The notes beneath the pieces are model-generated. The model was given only the letters and a program-made list of their open reading frames with translations. It made no database searches and had not been told where the DNA came from. From Cytophagales bacterium (GTDB lineage: Bacteria; Bacteroidota; Bacteroidia; Cytophagales; Cyclobacteriaceae): a DNA stretch of 51,340 nt. Positions within the stretch are counted from its first letter, which is position 1. The number at the start of each line of letters is the position of its first letter. Below are positions 26,192-49,879 of the stretch, piece after piece. The DNA is taken from positions 1 through 51,340 of the forward strand of contig JAKSDO010000183.1 of assembly GCA_022360055.1 (NCBI GenBank). Reading direction: 5' to 3'. The translations under genes were made by a program, and so were the position numbers.

Positions 26192-26203
26192 TATCTTCGA
26201 ATT

Positions 26204-26388
26204 AGCCTGAAAAATTCATAATTTTTCGCCCGAAGGGCCGATCATTACTTTTATGCTCAAACAAGGAACCTTTTCATGGAAGCACGCATTTTTTTGTTCT
26301 CCAAATTTGAGGAATCAATAAAAGTAATGACCGGGGTTATCCCGATGCACATTTGATTATGATTCAACCTTTTACAGATATATTACTC
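26204..26388 (-). repeat. Structured 185-bp repeat, copy A (inverted relative to copy B)
   Basis: By hand alignment, 26204-26388 matches the reverse complement of 37890-38074 at about 90% identity. It contains near-perfect inverted arms, 26238-26254 and 26318-26334, with one mismatch in 17. Read in the direction of the HTCS gene, a short stem closes on a TTCG loop (GCCCTTCGGGC). It occupies the region just upstream of the HTCS start, so it may act as its leader or promoter. Confidence 0.8.
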
Positions 26389-26466
26389 TTTTGAAAATGT
26401 TTCATTGTGAATAAATCGGGTTAATTGTCTTTAACAACTCCATTCCTTTCATCCGTTTATATTTTT

Positions 26467-26637
26467 TTAAGTTGCTGACGCACAGATCAATATAATCATC
26501 TCGTGCGTGTCCTGAATTTGCTCCGGTCCTATCGGTTTTATAAAGTCATGTTGTTGATACGGATCGTAAAGCTCGTTTTTGATCCCGGGTTGGTACCCAT
26601 TAAAATTCCATTGGGATAAGATGATTTCGGGACTAAA
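26467..26637 (-). pseudogene. Fragment of an unidentified gene's C-terminus
   Basis: A minus-strand frame is open from 26637 to the TAA at 26467-26469 and encodes about 56 residues. It includes WNFNGYQPGIKNELYDPYQQ and IKPIGPEQIQDTHEMIILI. The composition is protein-like and unlike the surrounding non-coding DNA, but there is no start codon near its beginning and a stop lies directly upstream. I read it as the 3' end of a gene otherwise lost from the gap between the DUF1735-like gene and the HTCS gene. The family is not recognised. Confidence 0.45.
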
Positions 26638-26737
26638 TTACACCTGTATTTATTATCTACTCAAAAAGCGGGACCTTCAAAGCTTTGTTCTTAAACGAAT
26701 TAAAAACCTACCCTGTACATAAATCAAGCGATGTTCT

Positions 26738-26799
26738 TTAGTTCAGCAAGTTGCCACAGTATTTTGATCCGGGAAAAAGAGCCGCTTTTTAAAAGACTG
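26738..26799 (+). repeat. Dispersed direct repeat, left copy
   Basis: TTAGTTCAGCAAGTTGCC at the left, and TTGATCCGGGAAAAAGAGCC with the following CTTTTT at the right, recur in the same orientation at 38242-38309. A stem of AAAAAG with CTTTTT around a 5-nt loop is possible. Each copy lies 3' of a minus-strand operon end (26851 and 38392). Confidence 0.75.
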
Positions 26800-26850
26800 T
26801 TTTATTTATCGCACCTCCCGGGCGCTCGACAAATATTTATTCCGGGACAA

Positions 26851-27768
26851 TCAGATATCGAACTGGTTGACTCCATCCACTACCCTGTTCCTGAAATCAA
26901 GGGTATCCCTGGCCGTATGAATAATTCCATTCAACTCAAAACTATAGTTCAGTATGATCTCCCTTTTCGTCAGGTTAAACCTGGACCCACCATCGTCAAT
27001 AACCGGTACGGCGTCAGGCGCGCTCACAATGTCGATGGAATTATCTTTTTTAACAGCAATCTTCATTTGATCATTTTTCCCCCTGGATACGCCGATGCCA
27101 TGTACCACCAGTGTATCCGGCGCATACATTGTAAGCGCTACCACATCGTCAATTCCACCGGGATAAATAATTGGGTCGAGGGGATCGCCGTTTTCCGTTC
27201 TTGTGATCCTCCCGTGCTGGACATAGTAGCCAAACAACTGGTTGATGTATGAGAACGAAATAGTTGTAGTGGTCAGCTCAGCCAGTATGGAATCAGCCCC
27301 TATTACTTCCTCTAACCGAAAGCTCAACGCATAGTGGTGACCCAGCGACTGTGCGTCAGAAAGAAACAGCGCTGAGTCTGCCCGCACGTACACAAAGCCC
27401 TGCACTTTACCCGCAGGAATGGTGATCGTATTGGCAGCAGGTGTTCCGTCAGAGTTCTCCAGTGTGTAGTAGTTATCAGGTAGAACTGTATAACCTGCAC
27501 CGGTTGTAACGTCCGGATGTACGGAAAATAGGACCTCTACGTCCCTATCGTTCGACAGTCTCCCGCCAAGCACTACCCCAACGCCGATTCGCATACCCTC
27601 ACCCATGATAAAGGTCCTTGCTATTTCCGCTTTAGGCAAATAAACTGCGGTATACTCAAATTCATTTTTGACAAAATCATCATAACCACATGAAGATAAC
27701 AGTGATGTAACCACAACGGCGAGGGCCATCACAACGGTTGTTTTTTTATTGTAAAGCATATCTCTCAT
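26851..27768 (-). CDS. DUF1735-like surface lipoprotein of a SusCD locus
   Basis: A lipoprotein signal ends at LLSSC (Cys27). The following 130 residues match the DUF1735 beta-sandwich found in glycan-binding lipoproteins next to SusC/SusD genes. Readable pieces are TAVYLPKAEIARTFIMGEG, RDVEVLFSVHP, YTVLPDNYYTLE, and TITIPAGKVQGFVYV. The C-terminal half is probably a DUF4361-type or other binding domain. At 305 residues it has the usual length. It is the last gene of the operon, 18 bp after a susD-like gene, so it is probably an extra cell-surface binding protein for the same glycan. Its ligand is unknown. Confidence 0.8.
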   Translation of the reverse strand: MRDMLYNKKTTVVMALAVVVTSLLSSCGYDDFVKNEFEYTAVYLPKAEIARTFIMGEGMRIGVGVVLGGRLSNDRDVEVLFSVHPDVTTGAGYTVLPDNYYTLENSDGTPAANTITIPAGKVQGFVYVRADSALFLSDAQSLGHHYALSFRLEEVIGADSILAELTTTTISFSYINQLFGYYVQHGRITRTENGDPLDPIIYPGGIDDVVALTMYAPDTLVVHGIGVSRGKNDQMKIAVKKDNSIDIVSAPDAVPVIDDGGSRFNLTKREIILNYSFELNGIIHTARDTLDFRNRVVDGVNQFDI

Positions 27769-27786
27769 TTCTTAAATTCACACGGA

Positions 27787-29529
27787 CTACCAACCCTGGT
27801 TTTGTTCAAGGTTACTATTCAATAAAAGTTCCTCATAAGGCAGGGGCAAATAGTAGTTCTTTTCTTCAAAGACCCTGTCCTCCACGTCGATCTCTTCGTA
27901 GCTAAACGTGCCGTCCTCATTTTTGACGACCTTCATCCCTCTCACATGGTCCATGGCATCAATAGTTTTCCATCTCCTTAGATCATGGAAGCGCTCCCCG
28001 GAAAAGCATAGCTCGATGCGCCTTTCGTCTCTTGCCAGCTCCCTGAAGTGATCCCTTGACAGAGAAACGGCAGCAAGATAGGGGTCCGGGGATATTCCGG
28101 CACGCTGGCGGACCATGGCCAGCGCTTCCTGGGCAGAGAAGGTCAACCCCGGAGGTATGACATCGGGCTGACCGTAGGCCTCATTGGCCGCCTCGGCATA
28201 GATCAGGTAGATTTCCGCAAGGCCCAACTGCACGTATACTTTGGGCAGAATGGTCACCGGTTCATTTACAGAAGGATCAAATTCCAGATCGTTCAGGAAC
28301 TTTTTGAGGTAATAACCGGTCCGGGTTCCTATATTGGGAATGAAACCCCCAAAGTAGTCGCTGCCGCCTTCAAATATTTCCAATGGATCATAATTTTGAC
28401 AACCCGGAGCGCTGTCAAAACACTGATCATTATTGAAGAAAATAAACCTGTTAAACCTCAGGTCCCTGTTTATATATGGATTGTCCGGGTCGAAGCCACT
28501 TTCCGGAGCGCTTACAGGGTAACCGTTGGCCGCGGGAAAAGCATCGATCAGGTTTTGCGAAGGATTAACCTCACCTTTACCATAGAGCGTAGGTGGATAG
28601 AGGCGACGCTCCAAACTATTATTTTGTCTCCAACCTCGCAATCGCCATATATGATCGGGATCATCTTCCCTCTTAAAGTCATAGGGTTGAAGAGCTTTTA
28701 AACCGCCGTTTTGCAGGATCACCTCATGTGCTAATTCAGCGGCCCTTTCCCATTTACTGGCATCGTTGGTGGGGTTGAAAGCAGGACTTGCGGCAAAAAG
28801 CGCTATCTTGGCCTTGAGCGCACTCGCCGCCAAGCCGCTTGCTCTCCCGGTTTCAATTTCACCGTATCCGGGATTGCTGCTACCCCCTCCCGAATACACT
28901 GTCGGGAGGTGTTGTATTGCCGTATCAAGATCTGTGAAGATCTGGTCTACGCACTGTTCAAAGGATGCCCGTGAAAGGAAGGCATACTCATTGTGATCCA
29001 AAATTCGATTGACGATAGGAAATCCCAACATCTCTCCGGTAGCAGCCGATGGTCCGCCGTAGGTCAGTAACAGTTCCCATTGTGCCCAGGCTTTCAGAAA
29101 ATGGGCCTCTCCAAAATAGCGCCATATGGTCCTTACATTTTCAAGGGAATCCTGAGGAGCAGGTTTAAAAGGCAACCCTTTGTCGTGGACCTCTTCTATG
29201 TATAGCAATATTTGTCTAATATTGTGGTAAGAGCGCTGCCATACATTGCCAAACGGGTTGGATGTAGGCCCCCAGAAACCGGTGGCCAAAGGATTCGAAA
29301 TATTCCTGTGAACGGCATTGTCCGTAAGATATTCAATATCAAAGTCCCTGAAATAGTTAAAGGCATAGTCCGAATAGATATCGTTGATAAGACCGCGCGA
29401 TTGTTCCCTGAACGTAACGATCTCTTCTTTTTTAAGTTGCTGGATCTCATCTTCCAGAAAGTCCTGACAACCGAGAACCGACATGCTTGCAAGAAGAAAT
29501 ACGCCGAGTTTTGTATAGGTTGATTTCAT
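27787..29529 (-). CDS. SusD/RagB-family outer-membrane lipoprotein
   Basis: This lipoprotein (signal and lipobox SVLGC, Cys21) would sit as a lid on the SusC channel and bind the glycan. The helical TPR-like core is visible in AHFLKAWAQWELLLTYGG and SGLAASALKAKIALFAASPA. The conserved C-terminal stretch is AEIYLIYAEAANEAYG, followed by VRQRAGI and ERRIELCFSGERFHDLRRWK, which is diagnostic of the SusD family. It ends in NLEQNQGW, close to the usual terminal NPGW/QNPGY. Its length of 580 is normal. It pairs with the SusC gene whose stop lies 26 bp upstream. Confidence 0.95.
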   Translation of the reverse strand: MKSTYTKLGVFLLASMSVLGCQDFLEDEIQQLKKEEIVTFREQSRGLINDIYSDYAFNYFRDFDIEYLTDNAVHRNISNPLATGFWGPTSNPFGNVWQRSYHNIRQILLYIEEVHDKGLPFKPAPQDSLENVRTIWRYFGEAHFLKAWAQWELLLTYGGPSAATGEMLGFPIVNRILDHNEYAFLSRASFEQCVDQIFTDLDTAIQHLPTVYSGGGSSNPGYGEIETGRASGLAASALKAKIALFAASPAFNPTNDASKWERAAELAHEVILQNGGLKALQPYDFKREDDPDHIWRLRGWRQNNSLERRLYPPTLYGKGEVNPSQNLIDAFPAANGYPVSAPESGFDPDNPYINRDLRFNRFIFFNNDQCFDSAPGCQNYDPLEIFEGGSDYFGGFIPNIGTRTGYYLKKFLNDLEFDPSVNEPVTILPKVYVQLGLAEIYLIYAEAANEAYGQPDVIPPGLTFSAQEALAMVRQRAGISPDPYLAAVSLSRDHFRELARDERRIELCFSGERFHDLRRWKTIDAMDHVRGMKVVKNEDGTFSYEEIDVEDRVFEEKNYYLPLPYEELLLNSNLEQNQGW

Positions 29530-29555
29530 TGTTATTACTGAGTTTAACCGTTTCT

Positions 29556-32528
29556 TTAAAAATTGACTGAAGCGCCTATGGTATAATTCCTCATCATAGG
29601 ATATTCAAAAATTCCGGACCTCATGTCTTCCGGGTCAAGATCATTGAGTTTACTGAACACAGCGAGGTTACTTCCCCGGAGGAATACTTTCACCCGGTCC
29701 AACTTTATGCCCGAGATCAGCTCTTTGGGAAGTAGGTATCCCAGTTCGACCAGAGAAATCCTGAAATAATCCCCATTCACCAGCCAATAATCCGAGGTCC
29801 GGTAATTGTTTTGACTGATCTCTGAACTGAGCCTGGGATTGGCGTTTCCATTGGGAAGATCACTGTTTACGCTGCCATAATACTGTCCCAATCCTGCGTG
29901 CCTGTAATAGGCACTGTTCAACAAGTTGATGTCAAAACCTGCTACTCCGCTCCCTACGACATCGATGTTAAAACCTCTATAGCTTGCTCCCAGGTTGATC
30001 CCGTAATTGATTCTCGGGGTATGATTCCCGATCTCGACCTGGTCCCGGACATCAATTACATTGTCCCCGTTTTGGTCGACGTACCTAACATCGCCTACCT
30101 GTACCCGGCCAAATTGCGGCAATGCATCTCCGATGTTTTCGGCGGTAAAAAGACCATCGCTTTCCAACCCCATGATCATGTCCCCCGGGCGTCCTTGCCT
30201 CAGCCGGTACTCGTCAGGATGTTGCACTTCCGCGATCTTTTTGTTGACGATCTTGTGGTAGCCAAGATTTACGCCGGCATAGTAATTGAAACCACCCGAC
30301 CGGCTATCGTAAGTAAGGGCGGCGTTGAAGCCTATATTCCGGCGCTGCGTATAGTTGATGTAAGGCAGAAAAGCATTCTCTCCCAAGGCATCTGAAAACA
30401 ACTGGCCGGCCTGTATTACCTGTCCGTCGATATCAATATTAAAGTAATTTGCTGTCAGCGAAAGTTTATCCAGCATGCGCATATCTAACCCGGCAAAAAA
30501 CTGGTGGTAGGTCACCCAATCAATATCACGGTTAGCGGTTTGCACAAGCCTGTAACCAAATTCATTTTGCACCGTTTGGCCGACTCCGGTGTAAAGCGTA
30601 CTGCTGTTCCTTCCCCCGGCCCAATTCTCCAAATAGTAAAATGTAGAAGGCGTGTACTCGGTACCTATGATGCCGTAAGAACCCCGAACCTTCAGTAGAT
30701 CAATGACCGGGCTATTCTTTAAAAAGCTTTCCTCCGAGGCTGCCCATGCCATACCAAAGGTTGGAAACAACTTAGACCGCTTGTCTCCCAAGAACTTGGA
30801 ACTGCTACTCGAATTCAGATTGGAATACAGAATGTATTTCCCCCGGTAGGCATAAGAAGCGTTTAGATTAAATGTCAGGTTTCGGATATCCGGCTGACCT
30901 GCGTTGCGTGTAGGCAAGTAATACAGCAAGTGATTAAAATTTAAGTTGAGATCACTCATGCCAAATGATCTCACCAAGCCAAGGTTCCCACCGTAGGTAA
31001 AGGTACGGGATACGCCGGAGCTCGTTCTGCCCACAGAAAGTTGCCTGGTCTCCAATTTGTATACTTTCAACGCCAGCGAGTCGGCACCATTTTGGCCTTC
31101 AAGCGCTTCTACGGTATATAGTGGAGGCTGATTGTTGGTCTGCAACGATTGAGCGTTGAACGTCCTGAGCAGTACATAGGTCTGGTAACTCAACCCGGGA
31201 ACAGATTCGCTAAAATCAAGGTCAAAACCAAAATCAAAGATCATGTTGGCGTCATAATCGGTTCTGGTACCCCCGACTTTCAATTCCGAAAGTACGTTAT
31301 TTTCAAACTGGTTACTTACGATATAAGCCGTATCTCCAACGACAAGCGGAAAGGCATTGGCCGGTGTGCCGGATATCCAGCCAAACATTTGATCAGCGCC
31401 CATCACAGGGCGCTCGTTCTGCCCGAACTGACCATAAACGCTGGCATTGGTCGTAATGAGATCACTGAGCCGGGTCCTAATTTTAGTCCTGAAAGTGATG
31501 TTCTGACCATCGATCCGTTTGCCTGCATTTTCCAGTCCTTTCCAGTCGTCATAGCCTAGAAATGCGCTGTACATGGTACTCCCGGTTCCCCCGAACAACC
31601 CGAGAGAAGCGTTGTTGGAAGGGGCTGAATTTCTTACAAACTTCCCCCAACGGTCTACATTCGGATAGAGGATAGGGTCCGAGCCGCTGCGGTAGGCATC
31701 CAGCGCTTTCTGGCTGTAGATATCCCCTAAACCGTCGTTGTTGGAAGCGCGATTAATGACTGTTGCATATTCGAAAGCATCCAAAAGTCTTGGCAGTCGT
31801 GTGGGTTCATTGATCCCATACTGGTAGTCTACTTCTACCACGGCTTTTTCGGTGTTGCCACTTTTGGTGACCACATAGATAAGCCCATTGTCTCCCAGTA
31901 TGCCCATCAAAGAGTTAAAGGTAGCATCGCTGAGCACGATTACTTCCTCTACTTCTCGCAGGTCTACTTGCAGTCCGCGGGGCTGCCCGTCAATTAGTAC
32001 GAAGGGCTTGCCCCCGTTCAGGGTAAAAGAATAATTTCCTTCGCTGCTGGGTGTATTGGTACCCCTGGTAATCCGCAGGCCCGGCACCCGGCCTCGCAGC
32101 GCTTCGGGCAGGTTATTTCCCGGGGTTTTTCTTAGCTCATCTCCTGAAATGATAAATACAGAACCACTGGTTTGGCTGAGGTTGAACGTGCCAAAAGGCG
32201 TTTTCAGAAGCCTATCTGGCGCTTGGGTCACCACCACTACAGTATCCGTCGTTCCAACGCTATTTAATCCTGCTACGGCGGCGCCGGGTTCTCTTATTGC
32301 TAAATTTGCTCCGGACCAATGATCATGAGACCGGACGGAAAACCCCGGGTCATCTACCTGATCTTCCTGTCCAAAAGCATTATGCGTATTACAGAGGTCG
32401 AACAAGTATAAAAACAAAAGGCATGCAAAGGCTTTGATCTTCGTAATCGTTAATTCCATTTTAAAATCTATTAATTTTCTTCCATCTGATGCGTGTCTGC
32501 GCTCCGGCATCACATCGTCTTCTACCAT
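29556..32528 (-). CDS. SusC-family TonB-dependent glycan transporter, without carboxypeptidase-like domain
   Basis: The Met at codon 24 (32459) begins the signal peptide (MELTITKIKAFACLLFLYLF) and is the likely start; the longer frame overlaps the upstream susD-like gene. Residues about 110-220 are the plug (SGSVFIISGDELRKTPGNNL, LRGRVPGLRITRG). The strictly SusC-type consensus DASATAIYGSRGANG is diverged here to SDATFNSLMGILGDNGLIYV. The 22-stranded barrel follows and ends YTIGASVNF. Unlike the other two SusC proteins of this window it lacks the N-terminal carboxypeptidase-regulatory-like domain. It pairs with the SusD gene downstream. Divergent plug sequence and adjacent duplicated pair suggest specialisation for a different oligosaccharide. 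Confidence 0.93.
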   Translation of the reverse strand: MVEDDVMPERRHASDGRKLIDFKMELTITKIKAFACLLFLYLFDLCNTHNAFGQEDQVDDPGFSVRSHDHWSGANLAIREPGAAVAGLNSVGTTDTVVVVTQAPDRLLKTPFGTFNLSQTSGSVFIISGDELRKTPGNNLPEALRGRVPGLRITRGTNTPSSEGNYSFTLNGGKPFVLIDGQPRGLQVDLREVEEVIVLSDATFNSLMGILGDNGLIYVVTKSGNTEKAVVEVDYQYGINEPTRLPRLLDAFEYATVINRASNNDGLGDIYSQKALDAYRSGSDPILYPNVDRWGKFVRNSAPSNNASLGLFGGTGSTMYSAFLGYDDWKGLENAGKRIDGQNITFRTKIRTRLSDLITTNASVYGQFGQNERPVMGADQMFGWISGTPANAFPLVVGDTAYIVSNQFENNVLSELKVGGTRTDYDANMIFDFGFDLDFSESVPGLSYQTYVLLRTFNAQSLQTNNQPPLYTVEALEGQNGADSLALKVYKLETRQLSVGRTSSGVSRTFTYGGNLGLVRSFGMSDLNLNFNHLLYYLPTRNAGQPDIRNLTFNLNASYAYRGKYILYSNLNSSSSSKFLGDKRSKLFPTFGMAWAASEESFLKNSPVIDLLKVRGSYGIIGTEYTPSTFYYLENWAGGRNSSTLYTGVGQTVQNEFGYRLVQTANRDIDWVTYHQFFAGLDMRMLDKLSLTANYFNIDIDGQVIQAGQLFSDALGENAFLPYINYTQRRNIGFNAALTYDSRSGGFNYYAGVNLGYHKIVNKKIAEVQHPDEYRLRQGRPGDMIMGLESDGLFTAENIGDALPQFGRVQVGDVRYVDQNGDNVIDVRDQVEIGNHTPRINYGINLGASYRGFNIDVVGSGVAGFDINLLNSAYYRHAGLGQYYGSVNSDLPNGNANPRLSSEISQNNYRTSDYWLVNGDYFRISLVELGYLLPKELISGIKLDRVKVFLRGSNLAVFSKLNDLDPEDMRSGIFEYPMMRNYTIGASVNF

Positions 32529-34432
32529 CCCGGTGTTTGATTATAGGAAGGCACTGCTGCCACATCACGTACAGGTACCGGCCACCAATAATGCACTTCA
32601 TTAAAGGTTTTCCTCAAATTAGGTTGATCCTCCTCGGTAAAACTAAACCCGGTAGGATAGGTATCGGACGGGCCTCCCTGCCACCGCATGACAAGGTACT
32701 CGACCTTTTTATACGCTTCCAGATGGGCTATTTTCCACCTGCGAAGGTCGTCGTACCGGTGCCCTTCAAAGCAGAGCTCTACCGCGCGTTCGTTCCTGAT
32801 CCTTTCCCGCAAAGATGCCGCAGAACCGGTGTACATGGCGTTTACATCCGGCATGCCTATACGGTTGCGCACCCTGTTTACGGCTTCGAGGGCCGTTAAC
32901 GCAGCCCCGGGAGCGGATCCGTTCGGTCCGTAAGCTTCATTCGAAGCTTCGGCATAGTTGAGATAGATCTCTGCCAGCCTGAAATGAATGTTATTCACAT
33001 AGAAGTCAAACTCGCCCTTGCTTCCGGACTGCCAAAATGCACCGTTGGGCACCCATTTTCGTATCTTGAGGCCGGTGAAGTTCATCACCCGCCATAATAA
33101 TGCCGCCGGTGTGGCAGGATTGTGCAGGCCCCGGCCTCTCTTTCCCTTTTTGTTCACCAGGGCCAAATCTGTAAACCCGGTTTTGTTAATGGCCCCAACG
33201 GTGTGCTGCCAGGGTACACCGTCAAACAGTATGGCATTGTAAAATCGAGGGTCCCTGTTTACAAAAGGGTTTTGAGGATCATAAGAGGGATCATCTTTTA
33301 TGGCCAGACCATTTTTGGTCTCGAAGTTTGTGATAAAGTTTGCCAAAGCGCCAATGCCCATGGGTTGGGTATTGCCTTTCATGATGTCGTAACCGACGGT
33401 AAGGCTCAACCGCGGGGTAGGGTTCACTCCACCAGTATGATCGAACTTAAAGTTCGGTTCGTTAAAAATGACCTCGATAGGAATATCTTTGGTGGCGCCC
33501 GGCCCCACAAACATGCTTCGGTAAGGCCTGAGTTGATCCGGCTCGGAAACGAAGAGATCTGCGCCGCCCGGCCCCACGTCCATATTTATGGCATCGCTGG
33601 CATCGATCAACTGGTAAAGGCCGGTGGTATTGGCGTGATCGATCATTTCCCAGGCAGCCACAGCGGCAGTTTCCCATGGCTCCGGGCTGCCCGATACGTT
33701 TACCAGGGGGCTGGCGGCAAACAAAGTGATCCTGGACCTAAGGGCCATAGCCGCTCCTTTGGTAGGGCGCCCCAGGCCGCCGGGATGCCAGGAAGTCGGG
33801 AGCAGTTCAATGGCTCTGTCCAGATCGGCCATCATATCTGAAACATTGTTTTCGTAAGTGTCCCTTTCCCGGTCGAATGAAGCATTCAGATCGAGGTTGG
33901 TCTTAAGATAAGGCAAGCCTCCATGACGCTTGGTCATGAGGTGGTAGAAAAAGGCCCGGAGAAAATAGGCCTGGCCGAGCAAGGCATCGATATCCTCTTT
34001 ACCGGCGTCCCGTATCTTATCGATATGTTCGATAGTACTGTTCACCGTTCTTATTCCCCTCCAACTTCGATAATACCTGTCTACAAAGTGGGGCGTAGTA
34101 AATTTGCCGCCAGGCCGGTTCATCAGGCTGAGATAATCGCCCTGGGCATAAAGGTTATATACGTCGGGAATGTTCCTGTTCATCCGTGCCGGCTGACCTT
34201 CTCCACCCATAGTCATGGCCGGCAGCGCATCAGCATTACCGTCCCTGGCGCTGGTTTCAGCGATCAGGTGGGTATATGCCCCATCCAAAAAGTCGTTCGC
34301 CAATTGGATGTTTGAAAACACATCTTCTTCTTGCAGTCCTTCGAATTCCTGTACTTTATCCAAGTAATCTTCACAACCGGACAAGCCCAAAAAAGCTAAA
34401 AACATTGCGATAAAACTGATCTTCTTCATCAT
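32522..34432 (-). CDS. SusD/RagB-family outer-membrane lipoprotein
   Basis: The lipoprotein signal ends at LGLSGC (Cys20). SusD features are QAYFLRAFFYHLMTKRHGG, GAAMALRSRITLFAASPL, and a C-terminal LAEIYLNYAEASNEAYG, VNRVRNRIGM and ERAVELCFEGHRYDDLRRWK. The end reads VPSYNQTPGW, the family-typical terminus. It follows the SusC gene at 34449 by 16 bp, and its 3' end touches the next SusC gene, so the four transport genes are probably one transcript. Its 636 residues place it among the larger SusD proteins, consistent with a bulky ligand. Confidence 0.95.
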   Translation of the reverse strand: MMKKISFIAMFLAFLGLSGCEDYLDKVQEFEGLQEEDVFSNIQLANDFLDGAYTHLIAETSARDGNADALPAMTMGGEGQPARMNRNIPDVYNLYAQGDYLSLMNRPGGKFTTPHFVDRYYRSWRGIRTVNSTIEHIDKIRDAGKEDIDALLGQAYFLRAFFYHLMTKRHGGLPYLKTNLDLNASFDRERDTYENNVSDMMADLDRAIELLPTSWHPGGLGRPTKGAAMALRSRITLFAASPLVNVSGSPEPWETAAVAAWEMIDHANTTGLYQLIDASDAINMDVGPGGADLFVSEPDQLRPYRSMFVGPGATKDIPIEVIFNEPNFKFDHTGGVNPTPRLSLTVGYDIMKGNTQPMGIGALANFITNFETKNGLAIKDDPSYDPQNPFVNRDPRFYNAILFDGVPWQHTVGAINKTGFTDLALVNKKGKRGRGLHNPATPAALLWRVMNFTGLKIRKWVPNGAFWQSGSKGEFDFYVNNIHFRLAEIYLNYAEASNEAYGPNGSAPGAALTALEAVNRVRNRIGMPDVNAMYTGSAASLRERIRNERAVELCFEGHRYDDLRRWKIAHLEAYKKVEYLVMRWQGGPSDTYPTGFSFTEEDQPNLRKTFNEVHYWWPVPVRDVAAVPSYNQTPGW

Positions 34433-34448
34433 GAATAAAATTTAAAGT

Positions 34449-37400
34449 TTAGAAACCCACCCTTATGCCAAAGTTGACCCTTCTTACCACTGGGTACAGC
34501 CCTCCTCGAAACTGTCCCTCGGGATCCCCAAAGTCGATATCGGAAATGGTGATCAAATTATTGCCATTGACGTAGAGGCGCAGGCTGCTGATGTTTTTGA
34601 ACCGTTTGGTTTTGAAGTCGTAGCTTATATTGGCATTCCTCAACTTGAGAAAATCGAAATTCATGATCCTGGAAGTATGAGGCGCAAATAAATTCGGGTT
34701 ATTCGTAACATGCAGTGCAGGATATGCCGCATCGGGATTGCTTGGGGTCCAGTAATCGAGGTGTTCCGGGCGTCCTGCAGCTTCGCCTTCGGGCAAGGCA
34801 TACGCCAAAGAAGATATGATCAACCCTTCATATCCGATAACTCCGTTGAACATTGCGCTGACTGAAAAACCTTTATATGAGGCGGATAACCGAATACTGT
34901 AGCTGTTTTTAGGCGCCCTGGGCAGATCAAACCTCACCTGGTCCTCATTGGCATTGCCAATGACGGTGCCGTTGGCATTGTAATCTATGTAGCGGTAATC
35001 GCCCAAACCCGGCTTACCGGCGAACTCGGGATAATTGACCACCTCATCGATATTTTGGAAATAACCGTCTGTCTGCAGGAGCGGAACCGCTCCGCCGGGC
35101 TTACCGGCTACCCTCGAATATTCCGGTGTTTCCGCTCCATCCGCAACGCTCCTGACAATGCGGTTCTCATTGAATCCGTAAAATCCGCCAACAGAATATT
35201 TGAACCCGCCGGAAGTCGTATTCCTATAGGTCAATTCCAACTCCCACCCATGTCTTTTCGTTTCATCCAGGTTGGCGAAGGGCAATGGCGCGACAGAGCC
35301 CACATAACTCGGGACAGCACCGGACGGACGCCGGATCAAATTTTTCCTTCGATCTTCAAAAAACTCGAGGTTTCCCGAGATCTTATCATCAAAAAAGCCG
35401 AATTCGACCCCAAGGTTTTGCTTGGCTACGGTAGCCCAGGTCAATGTAGGATTGCCTATCTGATCTTCGAAGATCACCCTGAGGGGATTAGTGAGGTCTT
35501 CTCCAAAAAAATACCGGTTGTTACTGCCAACGTCATAAAAGCTGAGGTACTGCCAACGTGCGTTATCAAGTCCAGACTTTTGCCCGGTTTGCCCGTAAGA
35601 GTATCTTATTTTGAAGTTACTCAAGACATCGAAGCTTTGCCTGATAAAAGACTCATTAGCGAGGTTATAACCCAGGGCAAACGACGGGAAGAACATAAAC
35701 CTGTATCCTTCGGCAAAGGTTTCGTCTCCATTATAGGATCCATTGATCTCAACAAAATACCGGTAGTCGTAGTTATACGTGGCTCGTCCTACCCAATCCT
35801 CATTGAACAAAGGGAAATTGGTGCCCTGGATTCTTTTCAGCCGGGCAAACAATGCCATAGCGGAAACATTGTGCTTGTCAAATTTATTCTTGTAGCGGAG
35901 CTGGACCTGATAATAGGTATTTTCCTGGGAATTGTTCAGGTTCTCACTGGTTAAATTGTGCTCATAGGGTCGTTCGTAATTCCGCCCTTCGAAAGAAAAC
36001 CAACTACCGTCTCGTTCCAGGGTATAAGTATCGATGCGGGGATGCTGCACTCCATTCCAGGCTATGCCTTCGGCGCTTCGATAATTGGTGATCAAATTAT
36101 ACCTGCCTAACAGTTTAAGTCCTTTCGTCAGAAAATCAAGGTTTTGTTGCAGCTCAAAATCTGCGTTAAAGACGGTATGATATCTCTTGGTCAACCCTGC
36201 CGTATTAAGGTCGGCAAACAAGTTTGCTCCTGACCCGAACCTAGGCTCTGCCAAACCGGGATAGAGTTCATCAGGGTACTCTTCCATCACTTCGGCGGGA
36301 TAAAGGGGTACTACACCTCCGGGCGCCGAAAGGTAGGCCCCGCCAAATACCCTCTTGAAATTGTTTTGGTTATTGCCCGATATACGGGGTTGGTTTTGAG
36401 CTTCATAACGGCTGTGAATACTGCTCTTGAGCGTAGTGGTTTTTGTGAGCTCAAAGTCAAGATTAGCCCTGAAGGAGTATCTTTTAAAGTCAAATTCAGG
36501 GTCATAATTAAAGAACTTAGCAGTTCTTACAATGTCTCCTTCCTGAAGAAAACCGGCGGAAGCATAATATTTTACAAACTTATTGCCTCCCCTTAAACCG
36601 ACATTATGATTGTGGCTGGCTACGGATTTTTTGAGCAACAGGTCAAACCAATCTGTATCGGGATAAATATAGGGCAGGTCCCCCTCCCTCCAGTGAGCCA
36701 GGTCCTGCTCGCTGGAATATCCGGCGCCATAGGCCTGGTCGTTCAGGATCCCCGCATTCAGGGCCGATTGTGCCTCACAGGCGCCGAGGACTTCCGGCGT
36801 GAGCACAGGGGATTTAATGGTGTATTCACTGTTCCAGGTTATTTTGGGCCTTCCTTCCGTTCCCCTCTTGGTGGTAATGATGATCACCCCGTTGGCTCCT
36901 CGCATACCGTAGACCGCCGTGGCAGCCCCATCCTTTAATATGCTAATGTTTTCAACGTCCCGGTGATCGATGTTGGAAAATCCACCGACGATCTCCACCC
37001 CGTCCACCAGTATAAGCGGATTTGCCATTCCTCGAACAAATATATCCCCATCCTCGCCACCGGGCTTCCCGGATTCGATCACAACATTCAAGCCAGGTGA
37101 CATACCGCTTAAAGCATTGATGAGGTTCGGCGAACCTACTTCTTGAAGCTGTTCACCATCAACTTTATCAATCGCACTCAAGACACTGGCTTTCTCCTGC
37201 TCTCCATAGCCTACCACCACGATTTCTTTTAAGCTCAGTATACTGGGCGTCATGGACACGTCTATCGTAGCTCTGCCGTTTACTGGAACTTCTTCAACGA
37301 CATAGCCCACAAAAGAAAAGATAAGTGTGGCTCCCTCGTTCACCCTTACACTGTACCTTCCTTCAACGTCTGAGATGTTTCCATTCTGAGTGCCTTTTTC

Positions 37401-37523
37401 AATGATAGTAACACCCGGCAGAGGCTCGTCGTCTTCGCCTTTTACCACTCCGCTCACGATAGTTTGCGCCGTGGAGTAATATGAAATGGCAACAAAAAGC
37501 AGTAGTACGTTAAAATGCTTCAT
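34449..37523 (-). CDS. SusC-family TonB-dependent glycan transporter
   Basis: A signal peptide (about 1-19) is followed by a carboxypeptidase-regulatory-like domain (VSGVVKGEDDEPLPGVTIIE, IFSFVGYVVEEVPVNG). The conserved link LKEIVVVGYGEQEK leads into the plug, with ISILKDGAATAVYGMRGANG and VIIITTKRG. The barrel ends VNFGIRVGF with a C-terminal aromatic. At 1024 residues it is standard. There is no STN domain, so regulation by an anti-sigma factor is not expected, and the HTCS across the block is the likely regulator. It is the first gene of the five-gene transport operon; its promoter should lie in 37524-37889. Confidence 0.95.
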   Translation of the reverse strand: MKHFNVLLLFVAISYYSTAQTIVSGVVKGEDDEPLPGVTIIEKGTQNGNISDVEGRYSVRVNEGATLIFSFVGYVVEEVPVNGRATIDVSMTPSILSLKEIVVVGYGEQEKASVLSAIDKVDGEQLQEVGSPNLINALSGMSPGLNVVIESGKPGGEDGDIFVRGMANPLILVDGVEIVGGFSNIDHRDVENISILKDGAATAVYGMRGANGVIIITTKRGTEGRPKITWNSEYTIKSPVLTPEVLGACEAQSALNAGILNDQAYGAGYSSEQDLAHWREGDLPYIYPDTDWFDLLLKKSVASHNHNVGLRGGNKFVKYYASAGFLQEGDIVRTAKFFNYDPEFDFKRYSFRANLDFELTKTTTLKSSIHSRYEAQNQPRISGNNQNNFKRVFGGAYLSAPGGVVPLYPAEVMEEYPDELYPGLAEPRFGSGANLFADLNTAGLTKRYHTVFNADFELQQNLDFLTKGLKLLGRYNLITNYRSAEGIAWNGVQHPRIDTYTLERDGSWFSFEGRNYERPYEHNLTSENLNNSQENTYYQVQLRYKNKFDKHNVSAMALFARLKRIQGTNFPLFNEDWVGRATYNYDYRYFVEINGSYNGDETFAEGYRFMFFPSFALGYNLANESFIRQSFDVLSNFKIRYSYGQTGQKSGLDNARWQYLSFYDVGSNNRYFFGEDLTNPLRVIFEDQIGNPTLTWATVAKQNLGVEFGFFDDKISGNLEFFEDRRKNLIRRPSGAVPSYVGSVAPLPFANLDETKRHGWELELTYRNTTSGGFKYSVGGFYGFNENRIVRSVADGAETPEYSRVAGKPGGAVPLLQTDGYFQNIDEVVNYPEFAGKPGLGDYRYIDYNANGTVIGNANEDQVRFDLPRAPKNSYSIRLSASYKGFSVSAMFNGVIGYEGLIISSLAYALPEGEAAGRPEHLDYWTPSNPDAAYPALHVTNNPNLFAPHTSRIMNFDFLKLRNANISYDFKTKRFKNISSLRLYVNGNNLITISDIDFGDPEGQFRGGLYPVVRRVNFGIRVGF

Positions 37524-37889
37524 ATACCTAAAATTTTAATGTAGATTATCCTGTTTTCCTTACAATAGATATGATCATACCTGCTCATAAATTTTAGTGC
37601 AATTTCATACAAATATTCCCGTTGCTAAATGGGCAAATTCACTTTACGCGAGGGGTAATCTCGTAATACAATACCTGTCAGACAGTTAGGATGAAAAACT
37701 TTACCAACGAAGCTGTCCCGTTTACAGGATTGTTCAGAATGTCGTTCGTTTTCCGCAGTTCGTTGCCGGGCTTCGGCAGATCTTGGGAACCTGGCTAAAA
37801 GGGATCTGGTTGGCCAATAGACAAATGTAGATGAAGTGCTACAAGCTTGAAATGTCATCTTCAAACTTATCGAGTGATCTAATCCGATA
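37524..37889. other. Upstream region of the SusC/D operon
   Basis: This 366-bp stretch precedes the first SusC gene of the block. A minus-strand open frame (37625-37864) has no recognisable domain and an unlikely composition, so I do not call it. A CAAATGTA on plus (TACATTTG on minus, near 37815) fits the TAnnTTTG pattern. It is about 300 bp from the start codon and has no good -33 partner. Confidence 0.4.
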
Positions 37890-38074
37890 GAATACTATAT
37901 CTGTAAAAGATCGAATCATCATCAAATATGCATCGGGATAACCCCGATCATTACTTTTATTGATTCCTCAAATTTGAGCAACAAAAAAATGCGTGCTCCC
38001 AGGAACAGGTTCCTTGTTTGAGCATAAAAGTAATGATCGGCCCGGAGGGCGAAAGATTATGAATTTTTCGGGTT
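37890..38074 (+). repeat. Structured repeat, copy B
   Basis: This is the inverted partner of 26204-26388. Perfect 17-bp arms, 37944-37960 and 38024-38040, flank about 63 nt. The left end has GGGATAACCCCGAT. The right end reads ATCGGCCCGGAGGGCGAAAG and continues to ATGAATTTTTCGGGTTA. Conserved ends and arms are shared with copy C just downstream. Confidence 0.8.
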
Positions 38075-38089
38075 AAATGCCATAGAGTA

Positions 38090-38240
38090 GGGTTAATCCC
38101 GATAAGGCATAAAACATGATCGCTCAAATTTTGGGAATCCCGAATGGGATGCTTTGTAAACAGACGGATATTTATGTTCTATTTTTGAGCATTTTATGCT
38201 TTATCGGCCCGGAGGGCGAGAAATTCTATGAATTTTCCGG
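38090..38240 (+). repeat. Structured repeat, copy C (same architecture, different stem)
   Basis: The left end GGGTTAATCCCGAT and right end ATCGGCCCGGAGGGCGAGAA followed by ATGAATTTTCCGG match copy B. The long arms (38099-38114 with 38192-38207) have a different sequence from B but are still complementary at 15 of 16 positions, with a G-T wobble at the other. CTCAAA/TTTGAG motifs next to the arms are also kept. Confidence 0.75.
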
Positions 38241-38241
38241 A

Positions 38242-38309
38242 TTAGTTCAGCAGGTTGCCGTACCGAACGTATGTTGATCCGGGAAAAAGAGCCGCTTTTT
38301 GAAAGACTG
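38242..38309 (+). repeat. Dispersed direct repeat, right copy
   Basis: This copy matches 26738-26799 in the same orientation, with a 6-nt length difference in the middle. It directly follows structured repeat copy C. Confidence 0.75.
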
Positions 38310-49655: not shown

Positions 49656-49840
49656 TGTTAATAATTAACGAATTTGAAGCATTTATTTATTCCCATGAGC
49701 CGTTGGCAAACAGGTGGTTGCGGATGTGACAAAAACATATATCATTATAACATTTAATTCGAATTAATGCAAATTATATCATTGGTAATCAGTTTTTTAT
49801 ATCAACATTTTTCATCGTTCAACATCGAAGAAACTTCAAC

Positions 49841-49879
49841 TAACCCGAAAAATTCATGGAATTTCTCGCCCTCCGGGCT
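49841..49879 (-). repeat. Partial copy (D) of the structured repeat's right end
   Basis: On the minus strand it reads GCCCGGAGGGCGAGAAATTC, then ATGAATTTTTCGGGTTA. This matches the right ends of copies B and C over about 38 nt. The long arms and the left end are not visible. It lies 3' of the GT4 gene in the 261-bp gap 49656-49916. Confidence 0.75.

Follow-up and report, generated by a model that had tools for sequence, protein, structure and literature searches.

A repeat family built of hairpin chains in a Cytophagales genome, probably of MITE-like elements with a duplicated YTAR target

Introduction

The window analysed here, a whole stretch of 51,340 nucleotides from a Cytophagales bacterium, contains three copies (A, B and C) and a fragment of a repeat with conserved ends, in which the arms of a long stem differ between copies and still pair. 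An earlier note on this DNA took the changed but paired stem to mark an element that is selected, or copied, in folded single-stranded form, and named a MITE- or REP-like mobile element, an integron-attC-like site and a structured RNA as options. The locus raises the question of which of these the repeat is and what its stem pattern tells about its history.

Copy number and anatomy of the repeat family

We searched the genome that holds the window (7.55 Mb in 300 contigs, the home genome below) and obtained at least 46 matches with copy B and at least 43 with copy C as the query, both being lower bounds with 40 first-look candidates scored per query. When end patterns were searched at up to 3 mismatches, the 20-bp right-end pattern gave 59 matches against 1 with its reversed control, and the 27-bp left-end pattern gave 36 against 0. 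A, B and C are members of a true repeat family, beyond chance. The earlier note would have given up its family if no other copies had been found; dozens were present in the home genome, and copies A, B and C and the fragment lie where the note had placed them. Contig ends coincide with repeats in G000 (C7, C13, C38, C193 and C296) and in several contigs of the relative G084, so the copies are probably under-counted.

Alignment of the copies revealed that the element is longer than first drawn. Full-length elements measure about 205-260 bp, have no evident coding content and follow the plan CCCGG-hairpin-hairpin-GGG TTAA CCCC-long stem-GCCC/GGGC hairpin-AT-rich hairpin-CGGG, with a hairpin set a few bases in from either tip. 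The terminal inverted repeats are short, consisting by eye of CCCG/CGGG and a loosely matching ATTCAT block. From left to right, a B-type element consists of TTAA, the hairpin CCCGATTTATTCCCAATAAATC, about 50 bp, CATCGGGATAACCCCGAT, a 17-bp stem, GCCCTTCGGGC, GAAAAATTATGAATTTTTC, GGG and TTAA, and the CTCAAA/TTTGAG pieces that had been seen beside the arms form an inner helix inside the stem. The C-type ends on the right like the B-type but differs from it in its left part (CCCGGATGATTCATC...) and in its stem arms.

Copies in the window

Copy A is a full-length B-type element at 26206-26420 on the minus strand (nhmmer, B model 2-222, 237 bits); its location had been recognised correctly, and its left end is 32 bp beyond the point first given. 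It runs from the left end CCCGATTTATTC, read inward from 26420, through the stem, whose arms contain one G.T wobble, and the GCCCTTCGGGC hairpin to the right end TTTTTCAGG, which reaches 26206. TTAA stands at its left end (26421-26424) and TTAG on the plus strand, CTAA in the orientation of the element, at its right end (26202-26205), so that the right tetramer is one base off the left one. Copy A is adjoined at 26441-26544 by another repeat, about 100 bp long and more common, TTTCATCCGTTTATAT...GACACAC...GTGTGTC...CCGGTCCTACCGGTTTCAT; it is sometimes found in tandem and gave 33 matches in 0.82 Mb sampled, and none of the PF01797 or PF01609 loci scanned matched it significantly.

Copy B (37883-38072, plus strand) was seen from an alignment of 21 copies to be a B-type element whose first hairpin is gone by internal deletion, TCCGAT being joined to AGAATA. 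Its arms CCGATCATTACTTTTAT (37944-37960) and ATAAAAGTAATGATCGG (38024-38040) do form the perfect 17-bp stem described before, and its flanks mismatch, with CTAA on the left (37879-37882) and TTAA on the right. The loop contains, behind an A-run, a ten-codon mini-ORF (MRAPRNRFLV, 37989-38021) with similar versions in several B copies, which could be due to chance.

The TTAA at 38073-38076 joins B to copy C, as comparison with loci L064 and L013 indicated. Copy C (38077-38241, plus strand, ending in CCGGA; nhmmer, C model 71-241, 189.5 bits) is indeed a piece of the repeat, but it is just the 3' part of an element of the second subfamily and no whole copy. Its arms CCGATAAGGCATAAAA (38099-38114) and TTTTATGCTTTATCGG (38192-38207) match at 15 of 16 positions, as had been counted, the sixteenth being G.T, and TTAG follows at 38242-38245. 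The fragment proved to be a solo right end at 49840-49878 on the minus strand (nhmmer, C model 200-241), comprising the GCCC/GGGC hairpin, the AT-rich hairpin and CGGG, with CTAA outside it on the plus strand.

Nested composites and separate modules

At seven loci of the family (L010, L011, L012, L013, L014, L017 and L021), B stands directly behind the left part of C, always at the same TTAA-like site, and in L010 and L013 C sequence is also kept after B. The junction in L013 reads GATTTTAA-[B]-TTAAATGCC, while the same spot in L064, which lacks B, reads CATTGATTTTAAATGCC; C copies without B run uninterrupted in L051, L054, L058 and L064. The composite is thus B inserted into C at TTAA, and it is present at several sites. 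Since B followed by the 3' part of C matches these composites elsewhere in the genome, the B-C pair of the window appears to be left over from one.

Smaller units with TTAA-type flanks were also observed, namely the first hairpin alone (L278), the first two hairpins (L258 and L261) and solo right-end palindromes at 9 distinct loci; these units could also stem from deletion. An extra GCCTGCCTTGCCGCAGGCAGG-type hairpin lies between the GCCC/GGGC and right-end hairpins in L017, L023, L024, L038 and L042, with variants in L018 and L029. Further hairpin modules lie at module boundaries, either type occurring in two genera, of the GTCTGATGACTCCG type in L223, L234 and L244 (G094) and L226 (G009), and of the GCTCATGACGATTTTGTCAGAGTC type in L249, L255 and L277 (G094) and L254 (G108). 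By eye, an open frame (DPEGEKFHEFFGLN) can be read through the right end in L168 (437-481; G000 C278), as though an element end had turned into coding sequence.

Target-site duplication

Copies carry a 4-bp YTAR target duplication, mostly TTAA, and it is clearest in G084, whose 3.5-Mb genome contains 115 left-end and 151 right-end pattern matches. When 100 of these left ends and 100 of the right ends were paired at a spacing of 60-330 bp, the matches listed formed 38 pairs: 27 TTAA/TTAA, 4 CTAA/CTAA, 3 TTAG/TTAG and 4 unmatched, and CTAA, TTAG and TTAA all conform to YTAR. Among the same matches listed, the 11 pairs with a non-TTAA flank show an identical tetramer on both sides in 7 cases and a mismatch in 4, the right-end pattern having tolerated no more than one deviation from YTAR or the end sequence, so that strongly different right flanks would be missed; 7 matched non-TTAA pairs were reached in 0 of 100,000 shuffles. 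We then fetched 20 G084 loci, chosen mostly for a non-TTAA left flank. The same tetramer was present on the right in 8 of them (L280, L281, L286, L287, L288, L293, L294 and L298), two were mismatched (L295 and L296), two were doubtful fuzzy cases and 8 had no right end.

In the home genome, TTAA flanks 15 of 39 copies at both ends, and only one of the other 24 has an identical tetramer on both sides; shared non-TTAA bases numbered 7 against 2.0 expected, a value reached in 176 of 100,000 shuffles (p about 0.002). The duplication signal is weaker here than in G084, as expected for old, mutated flanks.

The duplication bears on two of the options. REP- or BIME-like repeats, moved single-stranded by a Y1 transposase (TnpA-REP, IS200/IS605-like) that recognises terminal hairpins, would fit the hairpin near each tip, the solo palindromes at 9 distinct loci and the mosaic modules, and the home genome does hold 4 PF01797 matches. 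The accessible text of PMC6006769 adds that atypical secondary structures, which recur at other places in the genome, flank the Y1 proteins of subclass 2.6, mostly from Bacteroidetes. Against this, the matched CTAA/CTAA and TTAG/TTAG flanks are a target duplication, and element ends were found at none of the four PF01797 loci of the home genome. To our knowledge, IS200/IS605 (REP-type) insertion makes no such duplication, which contradicts the REP-like option, and we consider this explanation unlikely. Integron-attC-like folded recombination sites would likewise have conserved ends and arms that are variable yet self-complementary, but copies are dispersed over many contigs, and a 4-bp target duplication is, as far as we know, unexpected from attC recombination; this option is contradicted in the same way and has hardly any probability left. 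The MITE option is supported by the family being multicopy, intergenic, conserved at its ends and flanked by a 4-bp YTAR duplication.

Stem pairing and covariation

Covariation within the B copies alone is weak. In 21 of them, 5 of 42 pairs were changed on both sides against a shuffled mean of 2.1 (reached in 16 of 500 shuffles), and 5 of 42 on the other strand (10 of 500). A set of 13 sequences, comprising 10 B copies, one G003 copy and two old copies of the home genome, had 8 of 34 pairs changed on both sides against 1.9 in shuffles (0 of 500), and its covariation score was 0.132 against at most 0.077 for every slid version. Across 18 representatives of subfamilies and lineages, the pairing of the arms with their own partners summed to -265 kcal/mol against -108 kcal/mol when shuffled (0 of 20,000), and the own partner was strictly the best in 12 of 18; these arms had been chosen by eye at conserved anchors, a procedure that favours the result, and two that were cut wrongly were kept. 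Stem sequences differ among lineages, each being complementary to its own partner, while in older C-like copies the main stem folds less clearly by inspection. The covarying stem that the earlier note described therefore holds across subfamilies and genera, but hardly within B. Its further step, to selection or copying in the form of a folded single strand, is not warranted by this: even with no selection, hairpin-templated correction at replication could produce such a pattern.

Covariation across lineages and stable predicted folds are also what a structured RNA, such as a cis-regulator, terminator or sRNA, would show. However, the two strands pair about equally in the B alignment (93.2 and 92.5% of cells), with no G-U preference for either strand in the B-copy alignments, and a target duplication is present. 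Rfam models gave no match at gathering score in the window, six matches in the B-C stretch at E up to 10, all under gathering scores, and a single tRNA and nothing else at 12 loci of relatives.

We merged 57 elements of at least 40 bits in sampled stretches and called ORFs of at least 100 aa without annotation; none of the 57 overlaps a called long ORF by more than 30%. Of 55 elements classed by their neighbours, 30 lie between co-directional, 17 between convergent and 8 between divergent genes, all orientation classes being represented; gaps of at least 150 bp in four contigs number 106, 31 and 46 in these classes. Divergent gaps hold fewer elements than their share, which is what avoidance of promoters would produce. 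With no fixed gene orientation and no Rfam match at gathering score, the gene-linked RNA option is left unsupported, and we regard it as very improbable.

Search for an autonomous partner

A transposase gene with these ends was not found in the families searched, PF01609 and PF01797. Two Y1-transposase proteins, at G000 C265:21651 and C59:7437 (frames of 194 and 182 aa), have flanks without the repeats studied. PF01609 has 7 matches in the home genome and 5, 0, 4 and 3 in G003, G084, G094 and G108; none of the 7 home loci carries element ends, and no element end was detected at the 12 loci of G003, G094 and G108, which were scanned for the left end. G084 has 151 right-end matches but no PF01609 match, so the element would be moved by another family, unless its partner has been lost or is missing from the assembly. 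Tracing unpaired left ends over about 1.5-2 kb led to no transposase with element ends. Four distant end pairs exist in G084 (C125, C206, C24 and C128); ORFs between or beside the ends in C125, C206 and C24 were ordinary genes by Pfam (patatin-like, GDP-mannose dehydratase, cytochrome c). Five ORFs beside unpaired left ends (L392, L393, L395 twice and L400) were not transposases, and a DDE remnant near a C-like piece in L188 has no element ends.

Spread among Bacteroidota

By BLAST, B matched 3 of 59 genomes, the home genome included and all of the same genus, and C matched the home genome only among 7 genomes of the genus. The covariance-model search that the earlier note had recommended extended this range. 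Model R1 matched 8 of 146 genomes, namely the home genome, G002, G003 and G005 of the same genus, and G009, G084, G094 and G108 of other genera, with G009 and G002 resting on one weak match each. The exact right-end pattern hit 74 stretches in the GTDB species collection, from Bacteroidota-labelled and a few other records. Forty-two of these come from one Cyclobacteriaceae MAG (JALSJF01, G084), which is in the same family as the home genome and would thus place the latter in the Cyclobacteriaceae, and the other 32 are labelled Cyclobacteriaceae, Marivirga, Lutibacter, Fluviicola, Bacteroidales, Draconibacterium orientale, Bacteroidetes/Bacteroidota, Chlorobiota and Acetofilamentum. By eye, many of the 74 have the same plan with other stem sequences, and some are solo right ends. 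Viral contigs gave no match to one right-end pattern, and plasmids none to one G084 copy.

Comparison with known systems and proposed mechanism

Bacterial IS MITEs are described, in the accessible text of PMC4596501 and PMC10969869, as small, multicopy, intergenic sequences that have no transposase gene and carry terminal inverted repeats and a target duplication. The family shares the small size, at about 205-260 bp too short for a transposase, the copy number, the intergenic position and the target duplication, clear in G084 and weak in the home genome. It differs in its conserved multi-hairpin interior with lineage-specific covarying stems in several Bacteroidota groups, in composites and single modules that occur as separate copies, and in that a parental IS was not found among PF01609 and PF01797. 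IS5 insertions target YTAR according to the portion consulted of PMC10359306, and the G084 pairs have this target too, but no PF01609 locus scanned carries the ends and G084 lacks a PF01609 match. REP/BIME repeats (TnpA-REP) are similarly palindromic, mosaic and intergenic, but the family is inserted with a 4-bp duplication and no Y1 gene of the home genome is flanked by its ends.

Two examples are close by description. Cardinium is a genus of Bacteroidota. Its MITECca01, in the accessible text of PMC9769881, is about 240 bp long, mostly intergenic and present in 169 copies, much like the family; unlike it, MITECca01 has been traced to a parental IS982-family element and is reported as lineage-specific. 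BrickBuilt of Porphyromonas gingivalis is likewise, in the accessible text of PMC4596501, a modular MITE of a Bacteroidetes genome, with IS5-like ends; the ends printed there (CCGAAAGGTCTC) are unlike those of the family, and it has a minisatellite and flanking duplications of differing length. The repeat family itself was not met in the literature searched, in which subscription papers were thinly covered.

Because the elements are non-autonomous and were inserted with a 4-bp YTAR duplication, we read them as MITEs. Judged from their sequences, they are very probably mobile MITE-like elements, and movement by a DDE enzyme in trans is probable. The likely explanation overall is that they are MITE-like non-autonomous DNA transposons, chains of hairpin modules with a duplicated YTAR target. 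We propose that a chain bounded by CCCGG...CGGG-type ends would be inserted at a 4-bp YTAR site after a DDE-type transposase, acting in trans, makes a 4-bp staggered cut and the target is duplicated. The enzyme may come from an IS not found here and may recognise the short ends with the adjacent hairpins. Stems may have stayed complementary as only foldable copies moved or were tolerated; alternatively, hairpin-templated repair may keep correcting them.

MITEs are usually viewed as short-lived offspring of one IS. A more tentative thought, which we hold to be rather doubtful, is that the family is a Bacteroidota-wide lineage of parasitic DNA whose identity is its fold and not its sequence: a five-hairpin, two-domain element that might outlive any parental IS, be served by whichever YTAR transposase is present, and keep its foldability as the machinery of replication or transposition acts on a folded single strand.

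What is unusual in this family is its conserved hairpin chain, and the best reading is that of a new, modular, structure-keeping MITE group. The window would hold copies of a small, gene-less, hairpin-chain DNA parasite copied into intergenic gaps, for which scans of the window and 12 loci of relatives gave no Rfam family and which can be abundant, as the 151 right-end matches in the 3.5-Mb G084 genome illustrate. A constant hairpin plan with stems fully changed between genera would offer a natural test of the role of DNA folding beyond the end sequence.
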